Position numbers and translations under genes: made by a program. From Rubripirellula tenax (lineage in GTDB: Bacteria > Planctomycetota > Planctomycetia > Pirellulales > Pirellulaceae), in assembly GCF_007860125.1 (NCBI RefSeq), contig NZ_SJPW01000007.1, forward strand, positions 1 to 64,000: 64,000 bases of DNA, in the 5' to 3' direction. Below, one piece after another: positions 1 through 7,071 of the stretch. The notes under the pieces are model-generated. The model did not search any database and was not told the DNA's origin. It saw only the letters and a list, made by a program, of their open reading frames with translations. The stretch's first letter is position 1, and each line of letters begins with the position of its first letter.

Positions 1-1
1 G

Positions 2-37
2 TATGATTTCTTGTTGGAAATCGAACGCGACGCATAG
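2..37 (+). CDS. C-terminal end of a cassette gene cut by the window edge
   Basis: Reading from base 2 gives YDFLLEIERDA followed by TAG at 35-37. The stop lies 4 bases before the attC core at 42, the usual place for a cassette ORF to end. Only the tail is visible and no function can be proposed. Confidence 0.4.
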   Translation, partial: YDFLLEIERDA

Positions 38-41
38 AGGC

Positions 42-131
42 ATCGAACCATCGCATGCAACGGAGCCGGGCTTGCGAGTCTTAACGAATGGAACATCAAC
101 TGTCCCGGCCCGCTGATGCGTACCGTTCCCC
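42..131 (+). repeat. attC site A1 (type A, 90 bp)
   Basis: Starts with core ATCGAAC (42-48) and ends with core GTTCCCC (125-131). The interior is an imperfect palindrome (GGAGCCGGG at 62-70 against CCCGGCCCGC near 104-113) with the family-conserved AATGG in the loop. It separates the partial first cassette from the cassette carrying the 158-568 ORF. Confidence 0.88.
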
Positions 132-157
132 GACTGACGTGTTCGCACGGAATCGCG

Positions 158-568
158 ATGTCTCGCAATGACCCGATGCTGATCGACAACACGGCAGCAC
201 TGCTAGCTCATCTCGAATCTTCTCGGATGACATTCCAATGGCTGATTCCGCCTAAAGCAGGACAGTCCATCTTGCTTTCACCTTCACATCTTCGACTACT
301 CGTTGACGATGCTCCGGTGGCGAGTTGTCCGCTAATGGGCTCGTTCATAAGGTTCGTTTGTGCTTCCATTGGTGAGATTAAACACACGCCGGGTACGACA
401 AACTCTGCGACTGGTACCTTGAAACTATCGACTTGCATGTCTGATCGCATGCTCGACATCGACTACGATTGCACTGAGTTGCCCGGCGTCGAGGGATCAT
501 GCTACTCTGGTGGTGGTTTGATTTCCGTTCCGCTGACGGACTTCCTCCTAGATCACGAAATCCGATGA
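158..568 (+). CDS. Cassette-borne protein of unknown function
   Basis: A 136-residue protein filling the first complete cassette (125-583). I start at the ATG at 158; a longer frame from 116 begins inside attC A1 and would translate attC sequence, so it is unlikely. The protein has no signal peptide or membrane segment I can see. It carries several cysteines in its second half and I recognise no family. The stop codon is 8 bases before the attC core at 577, typical cassette packing. It presumably depends on transcription from outside or from a neighbouring cassette. Confidence 0.6.
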   Translation: MSRNDPMLIDNTAALLAHLESSRMTFQWLIPPKAGQSILLSPSHLRLLVDDAPVASCPLMGSFIRFVCASIGEIKHTPGTTNSATGTLKLSTCMSDRMLDIDYDCTELPGVEGSCYSGGGLISVPLTDFLLDHEIR

Positions 569-576
569 AAGACGGC

Positions 577-666
577 GGGGAACCAAACGATGCAACCGAG
601 CGGCGAAGTCGGGCGTCTTGAAGTGGTTGATCTTCCGTCGCCGCCGGCTGATCGTCAACGTTCGCC
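577..666 (+). repeat. attC site A2 (type A, 90 bp)
   Basis: Core GGGGAAC (577-583) is the exact reverse complement of the entry core of its cassette (125-131). It ends with GTTCGCC (660-666). The interior keeps the GATGCA..CCG..GGC / CGCCGGCTGATCG arms of the family but lacks the AATGG loop word. Confidence 0.85.
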
Positions 667-1040
667 AACTGAAGAAGACTCTGCGGTGGAAGCCAGCTAC
701 GTTTGCAAGCAAAAGAGATTTGCGCGATTTGTTGCGCGGACGATTCGGCGCTCACGACAACATGCGGGGTGATCGCACGGACGATGCGCGGGCGAACTGT
801 TTGCGGCCCTTGATCTGGATCGATTGATACTCGCTCGCTGCCGACAATCTGGTCGCACATGGACTTCCACGTTCGGCCATCACCGAGATTCCTGGCTGAA
901 CCTTTTGCCGCAACGGTTGCTCTGTCGATCGATTCCGGTGGGTGCGATGACCCGAGCGGCCGATTTGCCGACGGTCGATGGGCATGGTACGATTGGTGCA
1001 ACGCCGATCAACGTGGTTGGCGACAACCCGCTGCAAATGT
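661..1040. other. Gene cassette without a recognisable gene
   Basis: Cassette bounded by GTTCGCC (660-666) and its exact complement GGCGAAC (1041-1047), 380 bases. No frame gives a convincing protein: open frames on both strands are short, start inside neighbouring attC sites or have compositions typical of shadow frames (many Arg and His). A 71-residue frame from 859 ends inside the following attC and cannot be excluded. The cassette may be non-coding or hold a decayed gene. Confidence 0.6.
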
Positions 1041-1129
1041 GGCGAACCATGAAATGCACGGGAGATCGCCATGACGGTCTCGCAAATGGATCGTCTTGGG
1101 GGCGATCCCCGTGATTTCGGACGTTACAC
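1041..1129 (+). repeat. attC site A3 (type A, 89 bp)
   Basis: Cores GGCGAAC (1041-1047) and GTTACAC (1123-1129). Conserved words CCATGAAATGCACGGGAG and GCAAATGGAT are present; the stem arms GGGAGATCGCC and GGCGATCCCC (1101-1110) are complementary. Confidence 0.88.
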
Positions 1130-1470
1130 GAATCGAATCAAAGACAACGCGGATTCGTTGTGGTTGATCTGACTTTGCATCGCCTGCGCGGTCGATTGTT
1201 GCGCGGTCGGCAGGCTCGTGATTCAGTCCGAGATGCGCGGTCGTCGGTACGCGGGGCAGTTCATGCTCGAGATTGGTGCGCGGTTGCAATTCCGCAGCGA
1301 GTGCCCGTGGCGTTTCCTTGATCTACTATCCAATCTTCGAGCAATCATCCACAGTCAACGTTCAACTTGGCGTGCTCGGTCAAGCTTGCTCGGTCTTGCT
1401 TCGGTCGGCTACAATGGGCGGGCACGTCGATCGGACTGGCCAATCGGCAACCACACCGTCAGCACCCATC
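1130..1470. other. Gene cassette without a recognisable gene
   Basis: Cassette between GTTACAC (1123-1129) and ATGTAAC (1471-1477), the only complete cassette whose core pair has a mismatch, at the outermost base. No convincing protein is encoded on either strand. Its right end holds a promoter-like sequence reading toward the next cassette gene, so it could be a promoter-bearing or decayed cassette. Confidence 0.55.
1386..1415 (+). promoter_or_regulatory. Candidate sigma70-type promoter inside an ORF-less cassette
   Basis: TTGCTC (1386-1391), 18 bases, then TACAAT (1410-1415). The -10 matches 5 of 6 consensus bases and the -35 about 4 of 6. It points toward the membrane-protein gene starting at 1570, with attC A4 in between. 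Inferred from sequence only. Confidence 0.3.
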
Positions 1471-1560
1471 ATGTAACCATGCCGTGCACCGGAGCACGGC
1501 ATGAGAATTTTACAAATGGACACCACAATGGCCGTGCCGCAGTGACGGCGGCCGTTCGCC
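1471..1560 (+). repeat. attC site A4 (type A, 90 bp)
   Basis: Cores ATGTAAC (1471-1477) and GTTCGCC (1554-1560). The arms GCCGTGCACCGGAGCACGGC and GCCGTGCCGCAGTGACGGC fold onto each other almost completely, with the loop ACAAATGGACACCACAATG. Confidence 0.9.
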
Positions 1561-1569
1561 GACTGAAAC

Positions 1570-2019
1570 ATGACAGCGATCCGAATGGAAACCGTCAACC
1601 CATATCAACCGCCCTCATCACCGACACCGGAGGCGGTTCCTGATTCGCGTCTGCGGTTCCTCGCTTACCTCGTGCCTACCACACTAGCAGTCGGGCTTAC
1701 TCTGCTGCTCTGGGTTGTACTTGTCTCGATTCTCAATGGCCTAATAGGACACCGTTTCTCGATGCTGCTTTGGGCGTTCACCCTTTTTCTTTCTTCGTCG
1801 ATTTCGATCGTTACGCTCAATCGCCTTTGGCGAACACGAGCCCAACCGCTCGCCTTTGGTTTGGCCTTCGCGGTATTTAGTATTGTCTTTGCTTTTGCCG
1901 AAGGCGACACCTCGAATGGCACCGATTATTGGATTATGACTATCGTTTACGGTAGCTTGCTGTCTTTGCCTATCGCCATGTTTTTTCTCGCTCGGCGTAT
2001 CGTGCGCAATGTCGTGTGA
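1570..2019 (+). CDS. Cassette-borne small membrane protein with NPYQPP N-terminus
   Basis: 149 residues; four hydrophobic segments (about residues 30-55, 62-82, 92-110 and 122-145), so an inner-membrane protein. It begins MTAIRMETVNPYQPPSS; a short cytoplasmic lead with an NPYxPP word is common in small planctomycete membrane proteins of unknown function (family knowledge). Translation could begin at the second Met (1585). The cassette is bounded by GTTCGCC (1554) and the exact complement GGCGAAC (2032). Function unknown. Confidence 0.65.
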   Translation: MTAIRMETVNPYQPPSSPTPEAVPDSRLRFLAYLVPTTLAVGLTLLLWVVLVSILNGLIGHRFSMLLWAFTLFLSSSISIVTLNRLWRTRAQPLAFGLAFAVFSIVFAFAEGDTSNGTDYWIMTIVYGSLLSLPIAMFFLARRIVRNVV

Positions 2020-2031
2020 CCTCAAACCGAC

Positions 2032-2121
2032 GGCGAACCATCCGATGCACCGAAGGACCGGTGGTCAGTTTTCACGAATGGATGCTCAGCTCCCGGTCCT
2101 CGGTGATCGGTACCGTTCCGT
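2032..2121 (+). repeat. attC site A5 (type A, 90 bp)
   Basis: Core GGCGAAC (2032-2038) exactly complements the entry core at 1554-1560; ends with GTTCCGT (2115-2121). Arms GATGCACCGAAGGACCGG and CCGGTCCTCGGTGATCGG pair, with loop TTTTCACGAATGGATG. Confidence 0.9.
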
Positions 2122-2130
2122 CAATAAACG

Positions 2131-2628
2131 ATGACTGAAATCGAAGACCAAGCCGAGTCGCAGGGCACGAGTTCTCCGTCAAGACGATCGCTCGTTGGCG
2201 GGGCTGGACTTGCGTTTGCCCTGCTGGGATTGGTCGCCGCGATTATGTCGCCCTGGATCATCGACGCGATTGAACCTGAACGGAAGCCAATCGACGAGGT
2301 CGCGGTTGAGTTCGCCACAAAGATCAAGGACCGGCTCGTTGCTAAGGCGAAGCGTCAAGAATATGTCTCGCCTGTTGAGGCGAATACAGGATTCAACGTT
2401 GCGAAATGGTATCCGGCAGGCACTATCGCTTTAGGATTGTGTGGAATCTGCCTTGGGGTTGGAGGATTTTGCCGACATGAAGACTTGCGAATTACTGGTT
2501 CGTCGGTTGCCGTCGGTCTGGCTGCAATCGTATTTCAGTACTTTTTGCTACTGGCGGCTGCTATCATATTCTTGATGTTGGTCGGGATCATCCTGTCGGC
2601 GATGGGCATCGACCTGCCAACGCCTTGA
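2131..2628 (+). CDS. Cassette-borne membrane protein of unknown function
   Basis: 165 residues. A polar Ser-rich N-terminus precedes a hydrophobic segment (about 24-46), a polar loop rich in Lys/Arg/Glu (about 50-90), and further hydrophobic segments (about 96-113 and 124-160), so probably three or four membrane passes. The cassette lies between GTTCCGT (2115) and ACGGAAC (2652), an exact core pair. The ATG is 10 bases after the entry core. I do not recognise the family. Confidence 0.65.
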   Translation: MTEIEDQAESQGTSSPSRRSLVGGAGLAFALLGLVAAIMSPWIIDAIEPERKPIDEVAVEFATKIKDRLVAKAKRQEYVSPVEANTGFNVAKWYPAGTIALGLCGICLGVGGFCRHEDLRITGSSVAVGLAAIVFQYFLLLAAAIIFLMLVGIILSAMGIDLPTP

Positions 2629-2651
2629 ACGTTCGCTAACCCAAAGTGAAG

Positions 2652-2741
2652 ACGGAACCATGCGATGCACCGGAGCCGGGCTTGCAAGGTTTCACAAATG
2701 GAACGTCAACTGTCCCGGCCCGCTGATCGCCGCCGTTATCG
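2652..2741 (+). repeat. attC site A6 (type A, 90 bp)
   Basis: Core ACGGAAC (2652-2658) matches the entry core at 2115; ends with GTTATCG (2735-2741). Nearly identical in sequence to A1 across the conserved arms (CACCGGAGCCGGGCTTGC and GTCCCGGCCCGCTGAT). It is the last type A site; all later sites are type B. Confidence 0.9.
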
Positions 2742-2748
2742 GACTGAG

Positions 2749-2937
2749 ATGAAAACGCTCGCTCTACTGCTAACGCTCTTCGCTTGCATTGCGTCCAACG
2801 CAATGGCTGAGCCACTGCGTATTGCGACGTACAATCTGAACTGGGGCAATCGACGTGGCGACGTTCCCACTGGTGCAAACCCGCGATCACCTTGGCTCTT
2901 TGGCAACGGGCCCTCGCATTGGTACAATCTTTCGTAA
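2749..2937 (+). pseudogene. Truncated endonuclease/exonuclease/phosphatase-family gene
   Basis: The frame from ATG 2749 gives a signal peptide (MKTLALLLTLFACIASNAMA) followed by EPLRIATYNLNWGNRRGD, the first strand of the endonuclease/exonuclease/phosphatase fold, where the N of YNLNWG is normally a metal-site residue. Homology is then lost: the frame runs into type B attC sequence near 2868 and stops at 2935-2937, after 62 residues. Full-length members have about 250-350 residues. The cassette has thus lost most of its gene together with the left half of its attC, probably by deletion. The entry core GTTATCG (2735) has no matching CGATAAC downstream, which agrees. Confidence 0.7.
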
Positions 2938-2990
2938 CTCAGAGTCACTCGCTTCGTTCAGGGCGGTGACGTAAAAACCTCCCGTTACAC
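2868..2990 (+). repeat. Right half of a type B attC site (B1, truncated)
   Basis: Contains GCAAACCCGCGATC (shared with 4576-4589 in site B4), then CGCATTGGTACAATCTTTCG and the terminal block GGCGGTGACGTAAAAACC, ending with core GTTACAC (2984-2990). The left arm (GGTTTTTACG and preceding core) is absent. Confidence 0.75.
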
Positions 2991-3005
2991 GCCCCTAGAT
3001 TTCTC

Positions 3006-3440
3006 ATGAGCGACGTCACCGTTTACGACAAGGCAAAATGGCACTTCGGTGGCGACTACCCCGCCGACCTCGACGCGGACTACGCCTACACTCACGCTGG
3101 CTACTTTTTCGGCTGGATCGTCGACAACGACTTGGTTGACTCCGACTTCCTCGACGACATCGGGGATGAGATCGCCCGTTTTCGGGCGCGCGAAATTTCC
3201 GCCCGTGAGCTGTTCATCATCACTGACGGCGCACTCGTTGACGACATGATGAACGACACCGGCAATGCATTTGCTGCACACTACTTCGATTTCACGAATG
3301 GCCAATACCTCGCCGACTACGAGTCTTTGCTGTGCGACGGACTACCAACAATGTACCACGCCGAAGATACGCCGGAGAATTACGAGACGATCTGCGCCAA
3401 AATCACGGAACGCTTTGACGAATGGAACGCGTCTCGGTAG
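3006..3440 (+). CDS. Cassette-borne acidic protein of the 'YDxAKWH' conserved hypothetical type
   Basis: 144 residues, strongly acidic and soluble. The opening MSDVTVYDKAKWHFGGDYP and the following YTHAGYFFGWIVDN resemble a family of conserved bacterial proteins of about 140 residues without assigned function (recognised from memory of the family). There is no signal peptide. The cassette is bounded by GTTACAC (2984) and its exact complement GTGTAAC (3452). The ATG lies 15 bases inside the cassette and the stop 11 bases before attC. Confidence 0.7.
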   Translation: MSDVTVYDKAKWHFGGDYPADLDADYAYTHAGYFFGWIVDNDLVDSDFLDDIGDEIARFRAREISARELFIITDGALVDDMMNDTGNAFAAHYFDFTNGQYLADYESLLCDGLPTMYHAEDTPENYETICAKITERFDEWNASR

Positions 3441-3451
3441 TTCGCCGGGGC

Positions 3452-3587
3452 GTGTAACATGGTTTTTACGCTAGGCCTTCGGCACACCTTCGTTGGTAGG
3501 CAACGTGCGTTGGCATTGGTACAATTTCTCGTGATTCAAACTCCACCGCTTCGTTTGGGGCGGTGTCGTAAAAACCTTCCGTTATCC
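3452..3587 (+). repeat. attC site B2 (type B, 136 bp)
   Basis: Cores GTGTAAC (3452-3458) and GTTATCC (3581-3587). Inner arms GGTTTTTACG (3461-3470) and CGTAAAAACC are perfect complements. Between them lie GGCCTTCGGCACACC and GGGGCGGTGTCG, and a long loop with ATTGGTACAATTTCTCG. Confidence 0.93.
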
Positions 3588-3601
3588 GCCGCAGGTTTTC
3601 C

Positions 3602-4096
3602 ATGAATGCCACCGCTCACTTGGTGTTTGACCGCGCGTACTACGAATCCAACTACGACGCTTGGCTCCGACATCGCGCCAAGCTCCGCCCGTACGCGGTT
3701 TACCTTTCGCTGGCCTTGCTCGCTTTTGGCGTCATCATGGCTTTTGCTTTCCGCGCCCAGTGGTTTGTTGGCGTCCTGTTCGTCTGCGCTGGCATCTACG
3801 AACTCATCGAGGCGTTGACTCACAAATCGCGCTGGATCAACGCCCGCGTCAAGGCAACCCGTGAGAACAAAACCGTTGACATGCAACTCTCGGAGACAGA
3901 ACTGACCACAACATCTTCGGTCGCGCATGGGACGATCCAGATTGATGCTTTTTCCGACATCATCCCAGCACCCGACGGTGTGTGTCTGATCCCCGAATCT
4001 GGCGTGTCCATCTACATTCCCGCTGCAACCGTCGAGCCGACCGACGCATTTCGCCCTCTGGTGGATGCGTGGATGGCAGCGCGTAGCGGCGGATAA
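3602..4096 (+). CDS. Cassette-borne YcxB-like membrane protein
   Basis: 164 residues. A short N-terminal strand region (LVFDRAYYESNYDAWLRHR) is followed by two adjacent hydrophobic segments (about 31-50 and 52-70) and a C-terminal soluble domain of beta-strand character. This is the layout of YcxB-like proteins, which are inner-membrane anchored and of unknown role. Its stop codon TAA (4094-4096) lies inside the attC core GGATAAC (4091-4097), so part of the ORF end is provided by the recombination site. The core pair GTTATCC/GGATAAC is exact. Confidence 0.7.
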   Translation: MNATAHLVFDRAYYESNYDAWLRHRAKLRPYAVYLSLALLAFGVIMAFAFRAQWFVGVLFVCAGIYELIEALTHKSRWINARVKATRENKTVDMQLSETELTTTSSVAHGTIQIDAFSDIIPAPDGVCLIPESGVSIYIPAATVEPTDAFRPLVDAWMAARSGG

Positions 4097-4227
4097 CAGG
4101 GTTTTTACGCAAGGCCTTCGGCACACCTTCCTTGGTTGGTCACGCGGGCTCGCATTGGTACAATCTCTCGTAGTTCAGGCATCGCTCGCTTCGTTTAGGG
4201 CGGTGTCGTAAAAACCTTCCGTTATGC
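4091..4227 (+). repeat. attC site B3 (type B, 137 bp)
   Basis: Cores GGATAAC (4091-4097) and GTTATGC (4221-4227). Arms GGTTTTTACG and CGTAAAAACC are perfect complements. The loop contains CGCATTGGTACAATCTCTCG. Confidence 0.93.
4136..4164 (+). promoter_or_regulatory. Promoter-like sequence inside attC B3
   Basis: TTGGTC (4136-4141), 17 bases, TACAAT (4159-4164), reading into the next cassette. The TACAAT word recurs in B1 (near 2911) and B2 (3520-3525) and as TATACAAT in B5, but a -35 at the right distance is clear only here. It may instead be part of the attC loop. Confidence 0.3.
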
Positions 4228-4473
4228 AACCGACCGATCAACCGCTTCGCTTTTGCTTTACTCTCGGGTGCAACCAAACGCGTTGATCCGCGGCCCTTGC
4301 GATGGAGGCCGGGACGTTCGCTTCGATCGCGCTGAAAGGTGTCGCTGGGTTTTCCTGAATTGGCGATATTGTTCGTCCCCGAGCCCTGGTGCTAAACCGT
4401 TTTCATCGGCAACGTTCACTGGCGATTCCACGCAAGGGCCGCTCAGCTTTTTTGTTGGTCGTGGCGGTCGGTC
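4228..4473. other. Gene cassette without a recognisable gene
   Basis: Bounded by GTTATGC (4221-4227) and GCATAAC (4474-4480), an exact pair, leaving 246 bases. Open frames on either strand run on into attC sequence and look like shadows. A 20-codon frame opens with the ATG within the entry core (4224). No function can be assigned. Confidence 0.55.
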
Positions 4474-4684
4474 GCATAACATGGTGTTCACGCTAAGTCA
4501 GGGCTTACGTCATTGCTGAATCTTCCGTTGATCAAAGCTCAACCGCTTCGGTCACGGGCTCTCCGCTGCAAACCCGCGATCGCCTTCGCTGTTTGGCAAA
4601 CCGCGTCTGCATTGCTAAACTTTTGTCTAATTCAATGTCGTTCGCTTCGGTGAAGAACGGCGACGTAAAAACCTTCCGTTGTCG
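4474..4684 (+). repeat. attC site B4 (type B, enlarged, 211 bp)
   Basis: Cores GCATAAC (4474-4480) and GTTGTCG (4678-4684). Arms GGTGTTCACG and CGTAAAAACC pair at 8 of 10 positions. The loop is about 74 bases longer than in the other B sites and contains an extra CTTCCGTTGATC near 4519, possibly a remnant of a second site. Confidence 0.8.
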
Positions 4685-4688
4685 GTCG

Positions 4689-5003
4689 CTAGCTTTTTGT
4701 GATTTCGACGTCCATGTGCTGACCTCCACGCAACACTCTTACGACCTCGATCGAATCTTCTCTTTCGATGTAGAACACGACATGGTTGGAAAAATCCTTC
4801 ACCAGCCTCGTTCTCAGGCCCGCTAGTTCGGGAACGCTGGTGGCGAACGGCCCACCACTTTCGGGGAGCATCGCCAGCCCCTTGATCGTCTGCTCGGCTC
4901 TTTCGAGAAACCGCAACGCAGCATCAATGCTGCCATCCGCGATGTACATTGCGTGTGACTCAACGTCCTCGACGGCTTTGGGCCGTCGCGTAATTGGTTT
5001 CAT
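4689..5003 (-). CDS. ParE/RelE-family toxin (cassette TA module)
   Basis: 104 residues from ATG 5003, with an alternative GTG at 5012. The pattern is that of ParE-type toxins: an N-terminal basic strand (ITRRPKAVEDVESHAMYIA), a helix pair (DAALRFLERAEQTIKGLAMLP), then G..R..LV.....VVFYIEREDSIEVVRVLRGGQ. ParE toxins act on gyrase and RelE toxins cleave mRNA; which applies here is not visible. It lies directly downstream of its antitoxin gene. It is encoded against the array direction, so it needs its own promoter, expected near 5256-5286 inside the cassette. Confidence 0.85.
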   Translation of the reverse strand: MKPITRRPKAVEDVESHAMYIADGSIDAALRFLERAEQTIKGLAMLPESGGPFATSVPELAGLRTRLVKDFSNHVVFYIEREDSIEVVRVLRGGQHMDVEITKS

Positions 5004-5012
5004 GCTCGCCAC

Positions 5013-5255
5013 TTACTTGACGCTCTTTGAAACCACACGTTCTTTAATCGCCTGCCATTCTTCGTCTGTCCATGGTTCGGCTGGCCCACTCGATATGCCA
5101 GCCATCAACGCATGCTCAATTTCGAGTTGCTTTTCGTTCGCTGCCGCGACTAACGCGACAATAAACTCGCTCGGATTCGCAAATCCGCCTTTTTCCGTGG
5201 CTTGATCCACAAATTGCATCAAATCGTCTGGCAAATCGACTGGTATATTGGACAT
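5013..5255 (-). CDS. ParD/CopG-like ribbon-helix-helix antitoxin
   Basis: 80 residues from ATG 5255 (MSNIPVDLPDDL). The N-terminus fits a ribbon-helix-helix domain: strand NIPVDLP, helix DDLMQFVDQATEKG, then FANPSEFIVALVAAA. The C-terminal acidic tail (PWTDEEWQAIKERV) would bind the toxin. It precedes the toxin gene with almost no gap, as in parDE operons, and probably represses its own promoter. Cassette core pair GTTGTCG (4678)/CGACAAC (5287) is exact. Confidence 0.83.
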   Translation of the reverse strand: MSNIPVDLPDDLMQFVDQATEKGGFANPSEFIVALVAAANEKQLEIEHALMAGISSGPAEPWTDEEWQAIKERVVSKSVK

Positions 5256-5286
5256 AGGGATTAACCTCACTCGTATGGTTCGCGAC

Positions 5287-5425
5287 CGACAACATGGTGT
5301 TTACGCAGAGGCCCTTCGGGCACACCTTCGATGTGGTGCTGGCCTCGCTTCCATTATACAATCAAATCCAATTCAATTCACCTTCGCTTCGGCTGCGTCG
5401 GTGTCGTAAAAACCTTCCGTTGTGC
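5287..5425 (+). repeat. attC site B5 (type B, 139 bp)
   Basis: Cores CGACAAC (5287-5293) and GTTGTGC (5419-5425). Arms GGTGTTTACG and CGTAAAAACC pair at 9 of 10 positions. The loop contains TATACAATC. Confidence 0.92.
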
Positions 5426-5446
5426 GGCCTACTCCAAGGAAACCTG

Positions 5447-5662
5447 ATGCTCACACCAAACTACAACGCTGTGATTCGCCAAGACGGCGAATGGTGGATC
5501 GGCTGGATCGAAGAGGTTCCTGGCGTGAACTCACAGGGCGCGACCCGTGACGAGTTGATATCGAACCTTCGCGAAGCACTCGCTGAAGCGATCGAGATGA
5601 ATCGCGACGACGCTCGCAAGGCCGCTGGCGCGGCCTATGAAGAGGTGGCGATCCAGCCGTGA
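5447..5662 (+). CDS. HicB-like antitoxin
   Basis: 71 residues from ATG 5447, preceded by AAGGAAACCTG. The sequence follows the HicB/UPF0150 fold: YNAVIRQDGEWWIGWIEEVPGVNSQG, then ATRDELISNLREALAEAIEM, the partial RNase H-like domain of short HicB proteins. No separate DNA-binding domain is present. The stop overlaps the start of the next gene by 4 bases (GTGA at 5659), so toxin and antitoxin are translationally coupled. The gene is in array orientation and could be read from an upstream promoter. Confidence 0.85.
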   Translation: MLTPNYNAVIRQDGEWWIGWIEEVPGVNSQGATRDELISNLREALAEAIEMNRDDARKAAGAAYEEVAIQP

Positions 5663-5844
5663 AACGTCGCGACCTCATTCGACATCGTATGGACAACGGT
5701 TGCGTTCTGATCCGCGAGGGCGGCAGTCATTCGTGGTGGGGCCAACCCGTGACTGGCGCGCGGTCGGCGTTGCCTCGTCATCGTGAAATCTCCGATCATC
5801 TTGCCCGGAAAATCTGTCGCGATCTCGGAATCCCAGATCCGTAG
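5659..5844 (+). CDS. HicA-like mRNA interferase toxin
   Basis: 61 residues starting at GTG 5659. It fits the small HicA double-stranded-RNA-binding-like fold: KRRDLIRHRMDNGCVLIREGGSHSWW with the catalytic His in GGSH (residue 24), then PRHREISDHLARKICRDLGI, the usual C-terminal helix. HicA toxins cleave mRNA and are neutralised by HicB. The stop at 5842-5844 is 3 bases before attC core GCACAAC (5848). Confidence 0.83.
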   Translation: MKRRDLIRHRMDNGCVLIREGGSHSWWGQPVTGARSALPRHREISDHLARKICRDLGIPDP

Positions 5845-5847
5845 GCC

Positions 5848-5986
5848 GCACAACATGGTTTTTACGCTAGGCCTTCGGCACACCTTCGTTGGTTCGTCAC
5901 GCGGGCTGGCCTTGGTGCAATCTTTCGTACCGATAGGCATCGCTCGCTTCGTTCAGGGCGGTGACGTAAAAACCTTCCGGTCGCGA
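5848..5986 (+). repeat. attC site B6, last of the array, with a degenerate right core
   Basis: Core GCACAAC (5848-5854) exactly complements the entry core at 5419. Arms GGTTTTTACG and CGTAAAAACC are perfect. After CCTTCCG (5973-5979) the expected GTTNNNN is replaced by GTCGCGA, so the array ends here, at a non-canonical junction with the flanking chromosome. Confidence 0.85.
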
Positions 5987-6092: not shown

Positions 6093-6509
6093 CTAAGCGT
6101 CGGCAAGGAAACGAATCAAATCCGTGGACGTCACGATCCCCACGAGATTCTCGCCATCGACGACAGGTAGTGCGTGAAAGTTTTTTGAGCCGAGCATTCT
6201 TGCCGCCTCACGAACAGTTCCCGATATCGGGATCGTGGTGACATTGGCATTCATCACATCACGCATCTTGTAAGTGTGGTCAAGAATTTCGTCCAACTCC
6301 CTGCCGTCTTGGTTGCCAAATTCACCAAACGAAATCCTCATATAGTCATTCCAACTGACGATTCCAATGAGCTTCTGGCCGCTCGTAACAGGGATATGGT
6401 GGATATCGTCTTCCTCAAAGATCGTCCGCAGCTTCGAAACGGCTTCTCCGTCTTGAACGTATTTCACATTGGATGACATGATCTTTGAAATGGGTTCGTT
6501 CTTACGCAT
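6093..6509 (-). CDS. Two-CBS-domain protein
   Basis: 138 residues from ATG 6509, preceded on the minus strand by AAGGTGATTTATCTC, which decides this start over longer frames. Two CBS motifs fill the protein: ISKIMSSNVKYVQDGEAVSKL...IHHIPVTSGQKLIGIVSWNDY and MNANVTTIPISGTVREAARML...FHALPVVDGENLVGIVTSTDL. CBS pairs usually bind adenine nucleotides and regulate partner proteins. It stands alone here with no fused effector, so the partner is unknown. First gene outside the cassette array. Confidence 0.88.
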   Translation of the reverse strand: MRKNEPISKIMSSNVKYVQDGEAVSKLRTIFEEDDIHHIPVTSGQKLIGIVSWNDYMRISFGEFGNQDGRELDEILDHTYKMRDVMNANVTTIPISGTVREAARMLGSKNFHALPVVDGENLVGIVTSTDLIRFLADA

Positions 6510-7071
6510 GAGATAAATCACCTTTGTATGATGGATGGACTGAGAACAACGAGAACCAAGAACCGTGCCAGATTCGTCTTGGCATCTGACACAATTGCTC
6601 AAGCCGTCGGCAACTGTGTTAAGTTACTGGCCGTCGCAAATCACGTGCCGTACGGCATTCAGATCGACGTTCAGGGAAAACACGTTCGTTGCCCATACGT
6701 CATGTGCGGGCCCGCACGCTTGCGGTGCTAGCTCGCGCGCTTGCGGAAAGGTGTCAAGTCACCGTCACGGTCGCAATGCCAGGGGGGGAAAGATGTCGAA
6801 CGCCTTTTCCGACCCAGGTCTCTCTGAGACTCGGCTACACGAACGCTGCTCGATAGATGGCATAGGGCGCTGGCCGGTTATCCAGTCAGGTGACTGGCGA
6901 TGTGGTTCGCTTCGCTCGTGCGTTCCAATCTGGCGACAAAAGGCGTCGACGAAACAATACGTTGCCAATTCGACGGCGTTATACTGCGTCGACAGTCGGT
7001 TGGAGACGCACCGATCTCACACTCGCCATTATTTTTATTTATCGTTCTCGTGATCCAATTGGGAAATCACC
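6510..7071. other. Intergenic region without a recognised gene
   Basis: 562 bases upstream of both the CBS gene (minus) and the TIM-barrel gene (plus). Frames here (for example 6565-7053 plus) have shadow-like composition, rich in Ser, Arg, His and Cys. The final part (7020-7060) is AT-rich (CCATTATTTTTATTTATCG) and probably carries the promoter of the 7072 gene. Confidence 0.5.

Follow-up and report, generated by a model that had tools for sequence, protein, structure and literature searches.

What assembled the cassettes at the left end of contig C7 of Rubripirellula tenax, and do they form a single integron? The window, that is, the whole stretch of DNA that we analysed, comprises the first 64 kb of this contig (NZ_SJPW01000007.1) from a genome of 8.0 Mb in 42 contigs (our genome G000); window position 1 is base 1 of C7, and the contig start cuts into the array. 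Our results reveal that the region is a fusion of two arrays with unlike families of sites, which we call type A and type B. With a probability of about 0.8 in our estimate, type B is an integron-like system with a recombinase other than IntI, and the window would then hold an array end built from two capture systems.

The initial annotation had reported the signature of cassette integration in ten of ten complete cassettes, and we recovered all ten: the entry core matches the cassette's own R'' core at 7/7 positions in nine of them and at 6/7 in one. Its judgement that chance explains this poorly also held up, as 39 of the 40 variable core positions match, against a mean of 16.9 for permuted exits, and 39 or more was reached by one of 20,000 permutations. 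Capture by a tyrosine recombinase, which it had proposed, has good support in the sequence, and the genome contains four intI matches; the idea of a single integron array had to be given up, because the sites in half of the region are of another family, at whose home locus lies a recombinase that lacks the domain defining IntI. The left block (42-2741) consists of attC sites of one kind, type A, 89-90 nucleotides (nt) long, and the right block (2874-5979) of type-B sites, another family of about 147 nt with a single 221-nt long form. When the core is extended to 12 positions, the five left cassettes match at 9, 9, 8, 10 and 9, and the five right ones at 12, 12, 11, 12 and 12. The array reads as follows.

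42..131, plus strand: type-A attC whose own cassette is cut by the contig start (covariance model, 88.0 bits; training sequence)
125..583, plus strand: type-A cassette 1, core 7/7, with a mechanically called open reading frame (ORF) at 116-568 of uncertain exact start
577..666, plus strand: type-A attC (79.8 bits; training sequence)
660..1047, plus strand: type-A cassette 2, core 7/7, with a 92.6% identical copy in the type-A array of contig C6
1041..1129, plus strand: type-A attC (77.8 bits; training sequence)
1123..1477, plus strand: type-A cassette 3, core 6/7, with a 98.5% identical copy on contig C6
1471..1560, plus strand: type-A attC, not among the 300 of 461 model matches listed
1554..2038, plus strand: type-A cassette 4, core 7/7, with a 149-residue ORF at 1570-2019
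2032..2121, plus strand: type-A attC (84.1 bits; training sequence)
2115..2658, plus strand: type-A cassette 5, core 7/7, with a 165-residue ORF at 2131-2628
2652..2741, plus strand: type-A attC, the last of its block (91.2 bits; training sequence)
2735..2873, plus strand: truncated type-A cassette without its own R'' core and attC, ending at the fusion junction
2874..2995, plus strand: truncated type-B site, right part only, identical at 85 of 114 positions to the long-form site (4473-4690)
2984..3458, plus strand: type-B cassette 1, core 12/12, with a DUF7832 protein at 3006-3440 (PF25191, 1.1e-37)
3447..3592, plus strand: type-B attC with promoter-like TAGGCA (3497-3502) and TACAAT (3520-3525), spacer 17
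3581..4097, plus strand: type-B cassette 2, core 12/12, with a protein at 3602-4096 that is DUF308-like below the Pfam cut-off
4086..4232, plus strand: type-B attC with promoter-like TGGTCA (4137-4142) and TACAAT (4159-4164), spacer 16
4221..4480, plus strand: type-B cassette 3, core 7/7 and, over the longer core, 11/12
4469..4689, plus strand: type-B attC, long form
4678..5293, plus strand: type-B cassette 4, core 12/12, with a ParE-type toxin at 4689-5012 on the minus strand (PF05016, 1.3e-9)
5013-5270, minus strand: 85-residue ORF upstream of this toxin, probably its antitoxin
5282..5430, plus strand: type-B attC
5419..5854, plus strand: type-B cassette 5, core 12/12, with a HicA toxin at 5659-5844 (PF07927, 1e-8)
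5447-5662: further ORF of type-B cassette 5, UPF0150-like below the Pfam cut-off
5843..5979, plus strand: last type-B attC, in which the likeness to the family ends after the G of the expected GTT

At the junction (2873/2874), a type-A cassette without its end adjoins a type-B site without its left part. At the other end, the last type-B site departs from its family directly after the crossover G (5979/5980, no GTT), a pattern that would fit a deletion or an insertion into a site other than attI. A CBS-domain protein is encoded just past the array end (6093-6602, minus strand). The scan of eight cassette proteins and one further ORF assigned ParE- and HicA-type toxins of toxin-antitoxin pairs and the DUF7832 protein, and found no family above the Pfam cut-off for the remaining ones; Rfam gave no match at its gathering thresholds.

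We take the left block first. The genome has four intI matches above the TIGR02249 cut-off of 265, three full and one partial, and intI genes with the IntI-specific domain lie beside arrays of the same type as the left block. The gene at C1:5158-6099, for example, scores 362.9 bits, and beside it stand seven type-A cassettes in a row, all in keeping with the core rule, until the contig breaks off. The first type-A sites lie about 0.5 kb (C1), 0.8 kb (C8) and 2.5 kb (C4) from the full intI genes. The type-A covariance model, built from 13 sites and run over 400.8 kb in 24 stretches (E<=1e-4), gave 461 matches with the training sites included; among the 300 of them listed, none falls in the type-B stretches L030 and L090. 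Contig C10 (80,866 bases) carries type-A sites along its whole length, and we picked 121 of its cassettes by the 7-nt core match, with positions 8 and beyond unselected. Agreement in these is 91% at position 8 (shuffled 50%), 29% at position 9 (17%) and 31% at position 10 (30%). We read the block at 42-2741 as an ordinary IntI-type integron array. Type-A arrays occupy whole contigs or contig ends (C10, as stretches L091-L095, C6, C14, C17, C22 and the ends of C1), and the assembly seems to break within them. The partial intI (C2:845012-845668, L018) covers profile positions 97-315, lies beside masked bases and is 96.7% identical to the C4 IntI over 241 residues. In the IntI ORFs of C1, C4 and C8 (L017, L015, L016), about 120-140 residues precede the start of the TIGR02249 match.

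The right block is, in our reading, a detached piece of a system whose home lies on contig C5. There, 99 type-B cassettes form one chain of about 53.6 kb, from 288,688 down to 235,059, and all but three of the 98 stretches that separate them are type-B sites in register. Although the list of these cassettes was compiled without regard to cores, 96 match at 7/7 positions and 57 at 12/12. Core agreement is 0.85 at position 11 and 0.58 at position 12 (shuffled 0.34 and 0.31), falling to 0.18 at position 13 (shuffled 0.17); the core match is thus 12 nt long in type B, compared with 8 nt in type A. The 99 cassettes have 72 distinct 12-mer cores that retain the complement; in 85 cassettes the longest ORF has the direction of the array and in 12 the opposite one. 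Upstream of the array is the gene of a tyrosine recombinase of 490 residues, and an attI-like site lies in the interval from the stop codon of this gene to the first cassette. The genome as a whole has 113 matches to the type-B arm pattern. A second type-B cluster (C1:773,000-777,000, L090) comprises six or more sites and an attI-like site of its own.

An alignment of 102 type-B sites from 13 loci in nine genomes reveals their common anatomy. The 10-bp L stem, which pairs without bulges in the consensus, has two pairs with a few two-sided changes; an inner 5-bp stem has one two-sided change, and a mini-hairpin protrudes laterally from one arm, where it may serve as a strand mark. In addition, most type-B sites carry a sigma70-like motif, usually TTGGCA or TAGGCA followed after 17 nt by TACAAT and directed toward the next cassette. 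The mean score of this motif is 10.7, against 3.4 on the other strand and 4.0 in shuffled sites. It beats all 20 shuffles in 131 of the 157 sites, has a spacer of 17 in 146 of them, and scores at least 7 in 143, compared with 2 of 113 type-A sites; the 157 sites are not independent cases, however, because they share descent.

Closely similar type-B cassettes also recur, both within an array and between genomes. On C5, cassettes 2 and 10 share an identical stretch of 372 nt, and a further pair one of 330 nt. Over 489 nt, one C5 cassette has 99.0% identity to a cassette in G018, a genome of the same genus, and a G018 cassette is 93.5% identical over 352 nt to one in K23_9, which belongs to another genus. 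The recombinases of these genomes are far more diverged: identity is 53% between C5 and G018 and 51% between G018 and K23_9 (as represented by proteins P0010 and P0009).

What kind of enzyme is the type-B recombinase? The C5 protein scores 180 bits against TIGR02249 (cut-off 265). We also considered XerC and XerD and rejected both, as the curated cut-offs were missed (149.5 bits against 335.15 and 145.7 bits against 329.6, respectively). Residues R180, K205, H290, R293, H316 and Y325, which we take to be the catalytic residues, are invariant across 18 aligned proteins. IntI carries an additional domain of about 30 residues, involved in single-strand binding (a passage in PMC7784347) and called necessary for integron-mediated recombination in a part of PMC9668308. 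We measured this domain as the number of residues between the two conserved motifs that flank it. The stretch has 95 residues in all 115 measurable IntI proteins (of 120), while in type-B proteins it has 52-79 residues (109 measurable of 120) and at most 67 in 107 of them; four Xer-like proteins have 55-66. The motif LPxALxxKYP is present in 82 of 120 IntI and in none of 120 type-B proteins. Thus, the type-B recombinase lacks the IntI additional domain. In a tree of 49 proteins, from whose alignment columns filled in less than 60% of rows were removed, the type-B proteins group together (98/97), apart from a clade of IntI (100/99); among the IntI rows, the stretch has 95 residues in 18 of the 19 measurable and 112 in one. 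Type B is not nested within the sampled IntI, most of which come from planctomycetes or are of unnamed origin. Structure comparison places IntI and archaeal Xer nearest to the type-B recombinase, with IntI ranked first by Foldseek; the C5 model used has a mean predicted local distance difference test (pLDDT) score of 75 and a predicted template modelling (pTM) score of 0.43. A deeper relative of the type-B recombinase at L041:4605-8526 is followed, as judged by eye, by an attI-like site and a cassette, the site of which has the type-B layout but a different sequence.

The link between this enzyme and type-B sites extends beyond one genome. We surveyed 241 genomes of the family, including our own, with at most six recombinase candidates scored per genome (E<=1e-60). 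The recombinase is present in 23 and at least one exact type-B motif in 49, while a reversed control motif gave one match. At least one motif occurs in 22 of the 23 recombinase genomes and in 27 of the 218 others (p 1e-16), and at least three sites in 20 of 23 and 9 of 218 (p 2e-19), p values that are too small because the genomes, and the sites, are related. We then looked at 25 of the 26 recombinase loci found (24 genomes; G200:C13 was left out). Type-B sites adjoin the recombinase in fitting orientation in 20 of them and were found nowhere else in the 25 locus stretches. Sixteen of these arrays lie downstream in the direction of the gene, with the first site 532-1317 nt past the match in 15 and 3136 nt in one, and four lie upstream and point away. 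The motif TGTCG..A.A..GTT, a predicted attI, is present in 22 of the 25 loci, and the first cassette matches the attI-like site at 7/7 core positions in 16 of 19 arrays, at 6/7 in one and at 5/7 in two. Of 12 loci in which we tested the reading frame of the recombinase, 11 have it open for 97% or more of the match; that of L043 is broken.

Several points weigh against assigning type-B sites to a recombinase of their own. The p values are inflated as stated, and the nine recombinase-free genomes with at least three type-B sites have to be explained. Five of the 25 loci have no type-B sites (G065, G110, G117, G183 and G566); among these, G065 has in-frame stops, and G110, G117 and G183 lie at contig ends. 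Stops occur inside the recombinase match at 7 of 25 places, partly from matches that run beyond the gene end (G110, L039), and some of the genes are probably dead. In the comparison of first cassettes with attI-like sites, the best core-matching attI candidate was chosen for each locus, which favours 7/7. In 4 of 13 arrays, the attI-adjacent cassette has a second copy (at least 98%) farther inside its array, as have 13 of 150 other cassettes (p 0.032), a weak enrichment drawn from a count in which the array walk ended early in some arrays. Covariation in the type-B stems is thin, because most stem pairs hardly vary, and folding energy has no strand preference, the bottom strand being lower in 47 of 92 sites. 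The stretch between the flanking motifs in the C5 protein itself has 74 residues, only 21 below IntI, owing to an insertion absent from the other 17 aligned proteins. Finally, the test did not reject a clade uniting type B with IntI (p 0.465), and type B may therefore be a sister of IntI.

Another difficulty is that IntI is also present in 20 of the 23 recombinase genomes, which leaves room for IntI acting in trans. One of the true IntI enzymes of the genome would then move both site types, and the type-B recombinase would do something else or only help. The GTT triplet and the entry/exit core rule, common to both site types, would fit this, as would the presence of both types in one row in the window. 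On the other hand, the two families are unlike in length, core length and promoter-like motif, and it is the type-B recombinase that adjoins the type-B sites, whereas none of the 25 loci has an IntI match above 150 bits. IntI is found in 130 of the 241 genomes at E<=1e-40 (122 over the cut-off), yet at least three type-B sites occur in just 6 of the 110 IntI-positive genomes without the recombinase; IntI alone predicts type-B sites poorly. Moreover, three genomes have the recombinase and no detectable IntI, and all carry type-B motifs: G209 (12), G186 (5) and G183 (2), the latter two being only 80-82% complete. Taken together, these observations make a shared IntI unlikely. A further explanation needs no new enzyme at all, the locus being a chromosomal integron run by IntI throughout, its two attC families unrelated, and the type-B block a foreign cluster of attC sites lacking integron-integrases (CALIN). 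No recombinase was seen next to the type-B block in the window, and none, nor any IntI, was matched in the 14-kb stretch around the C1 cluster, just as such orphans would predict. The same site family, however, has a home on C5, with 99 cassettes, an attI-like motif and a recombinase, and this arrangement is repeated in other genera, so that we regard the explanation as very improbable. Another view, that homologous recombination amplified the type-B arrays as dead repeats and that their core complementarity is an inherited relic, we find scarcely credible: the sites are alike enough for homologous recombination to shuffle cassettes, some duplicated cassettes are adjacent (G165 cassettes 4 and 5) and some recombinase genes contain stops, but the complement is kept across the many distinct C5 cores, species whose recombinases have diverged share a nearly identical cassette, first cassettes match their attI-like sites and most tested recombinase frames are open.

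If type B is an integron-like system with its own recombinase, as we propose, it might work in the following way. A tyrosine recombinase that lacks the IntI additional domain, a relative of both IntI and archaeal Xer, would bind a folded single strand of the type-B site. It would recognise the site through a cassette-specific 12-bp R-box stem, the conserved 10-bp stem and the lateral mini-hairpin, which might mark one strand. A circular cassette would be recombined at GTT into the attI-like site beside the recombinase gene, and the putative promoter within most type-B sites would transcribe the next cassette; therefore, one platform promoter need not serve the whole array. We lean towards seeing here a second kind of integron, a separate recombinase lineage that possibly pre-dates the gain of the IntI domain, with folded sites, a 12-nt R box, a mini-hairpin, near-universal site promoters and expression anywhere in arrays of about 100 cassettes. 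Were this true, a working cassette platform would exist without the IntI additional domain, and domain-based surveys would overlook an integron class. The origin of single-strand recognition in tyrosine recombinases would become testable, and so would the expression of cassettes distant from the platform promoter. The genome studied here offers both systems together, with the 461 type-A model matches in 24 stretches and the 113 type-B arm-pattern matches.

Planctomycetes are known among integron bearers from passages in PMC2426708, PMC8618304 and PMC8352920; the last also contains an attC model for planctomycetes, and type-B sites may be among those it includes. In the open-access literature, the scope of our search (subscription papers and preprints lay outside it), we found no planctomycete integron system described as working without IntI. 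As described in PMC9668308, IntegronFinder recognises IntI with a pair of profiles, of which one represents the IntI-specific domain, and type-B arrays would probably be filed as CALIN, if their sites are recognised. Yet the type-B home arrays are unlike CALIN and are not orphan clusters, because a linked recombinase and an attI-like site are present.

How, then, does type B compare with other known systems? Like the sedentary chromosomal integron, exemplified by the Vibrio cholerae superintegron, it has an attI-like site beside a tyrosine recombinase gene, cassettes that for the most part point the same way, complementary R'' and R' with a GTT core, toxin-antitoxin cassettes and large arrays. 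The type-A block fits a sedentary chromosomal integron in the tested features. Type B differs from IntI integrons in the absence of the additional domain, the 12-nt R box, the mini-hairpin and the promoter-like motif in most sites. For attC, a passage in PMC4792948 attributes bottom-strand preference to extrahelical bases; cassettes are typically promoterless, and transcription starts within attC are reported for one gene-less cassette (a passage in PMC11014356). The remaining comparison is with the Xer proteins. Xer acts at dif in chromosome segregation. Unlike archaeal Xer (4a8e, 5hxy), XerC and XerD, the type-B recombinase stands beside cassette arrays and carries a further domain at its C-terminus.

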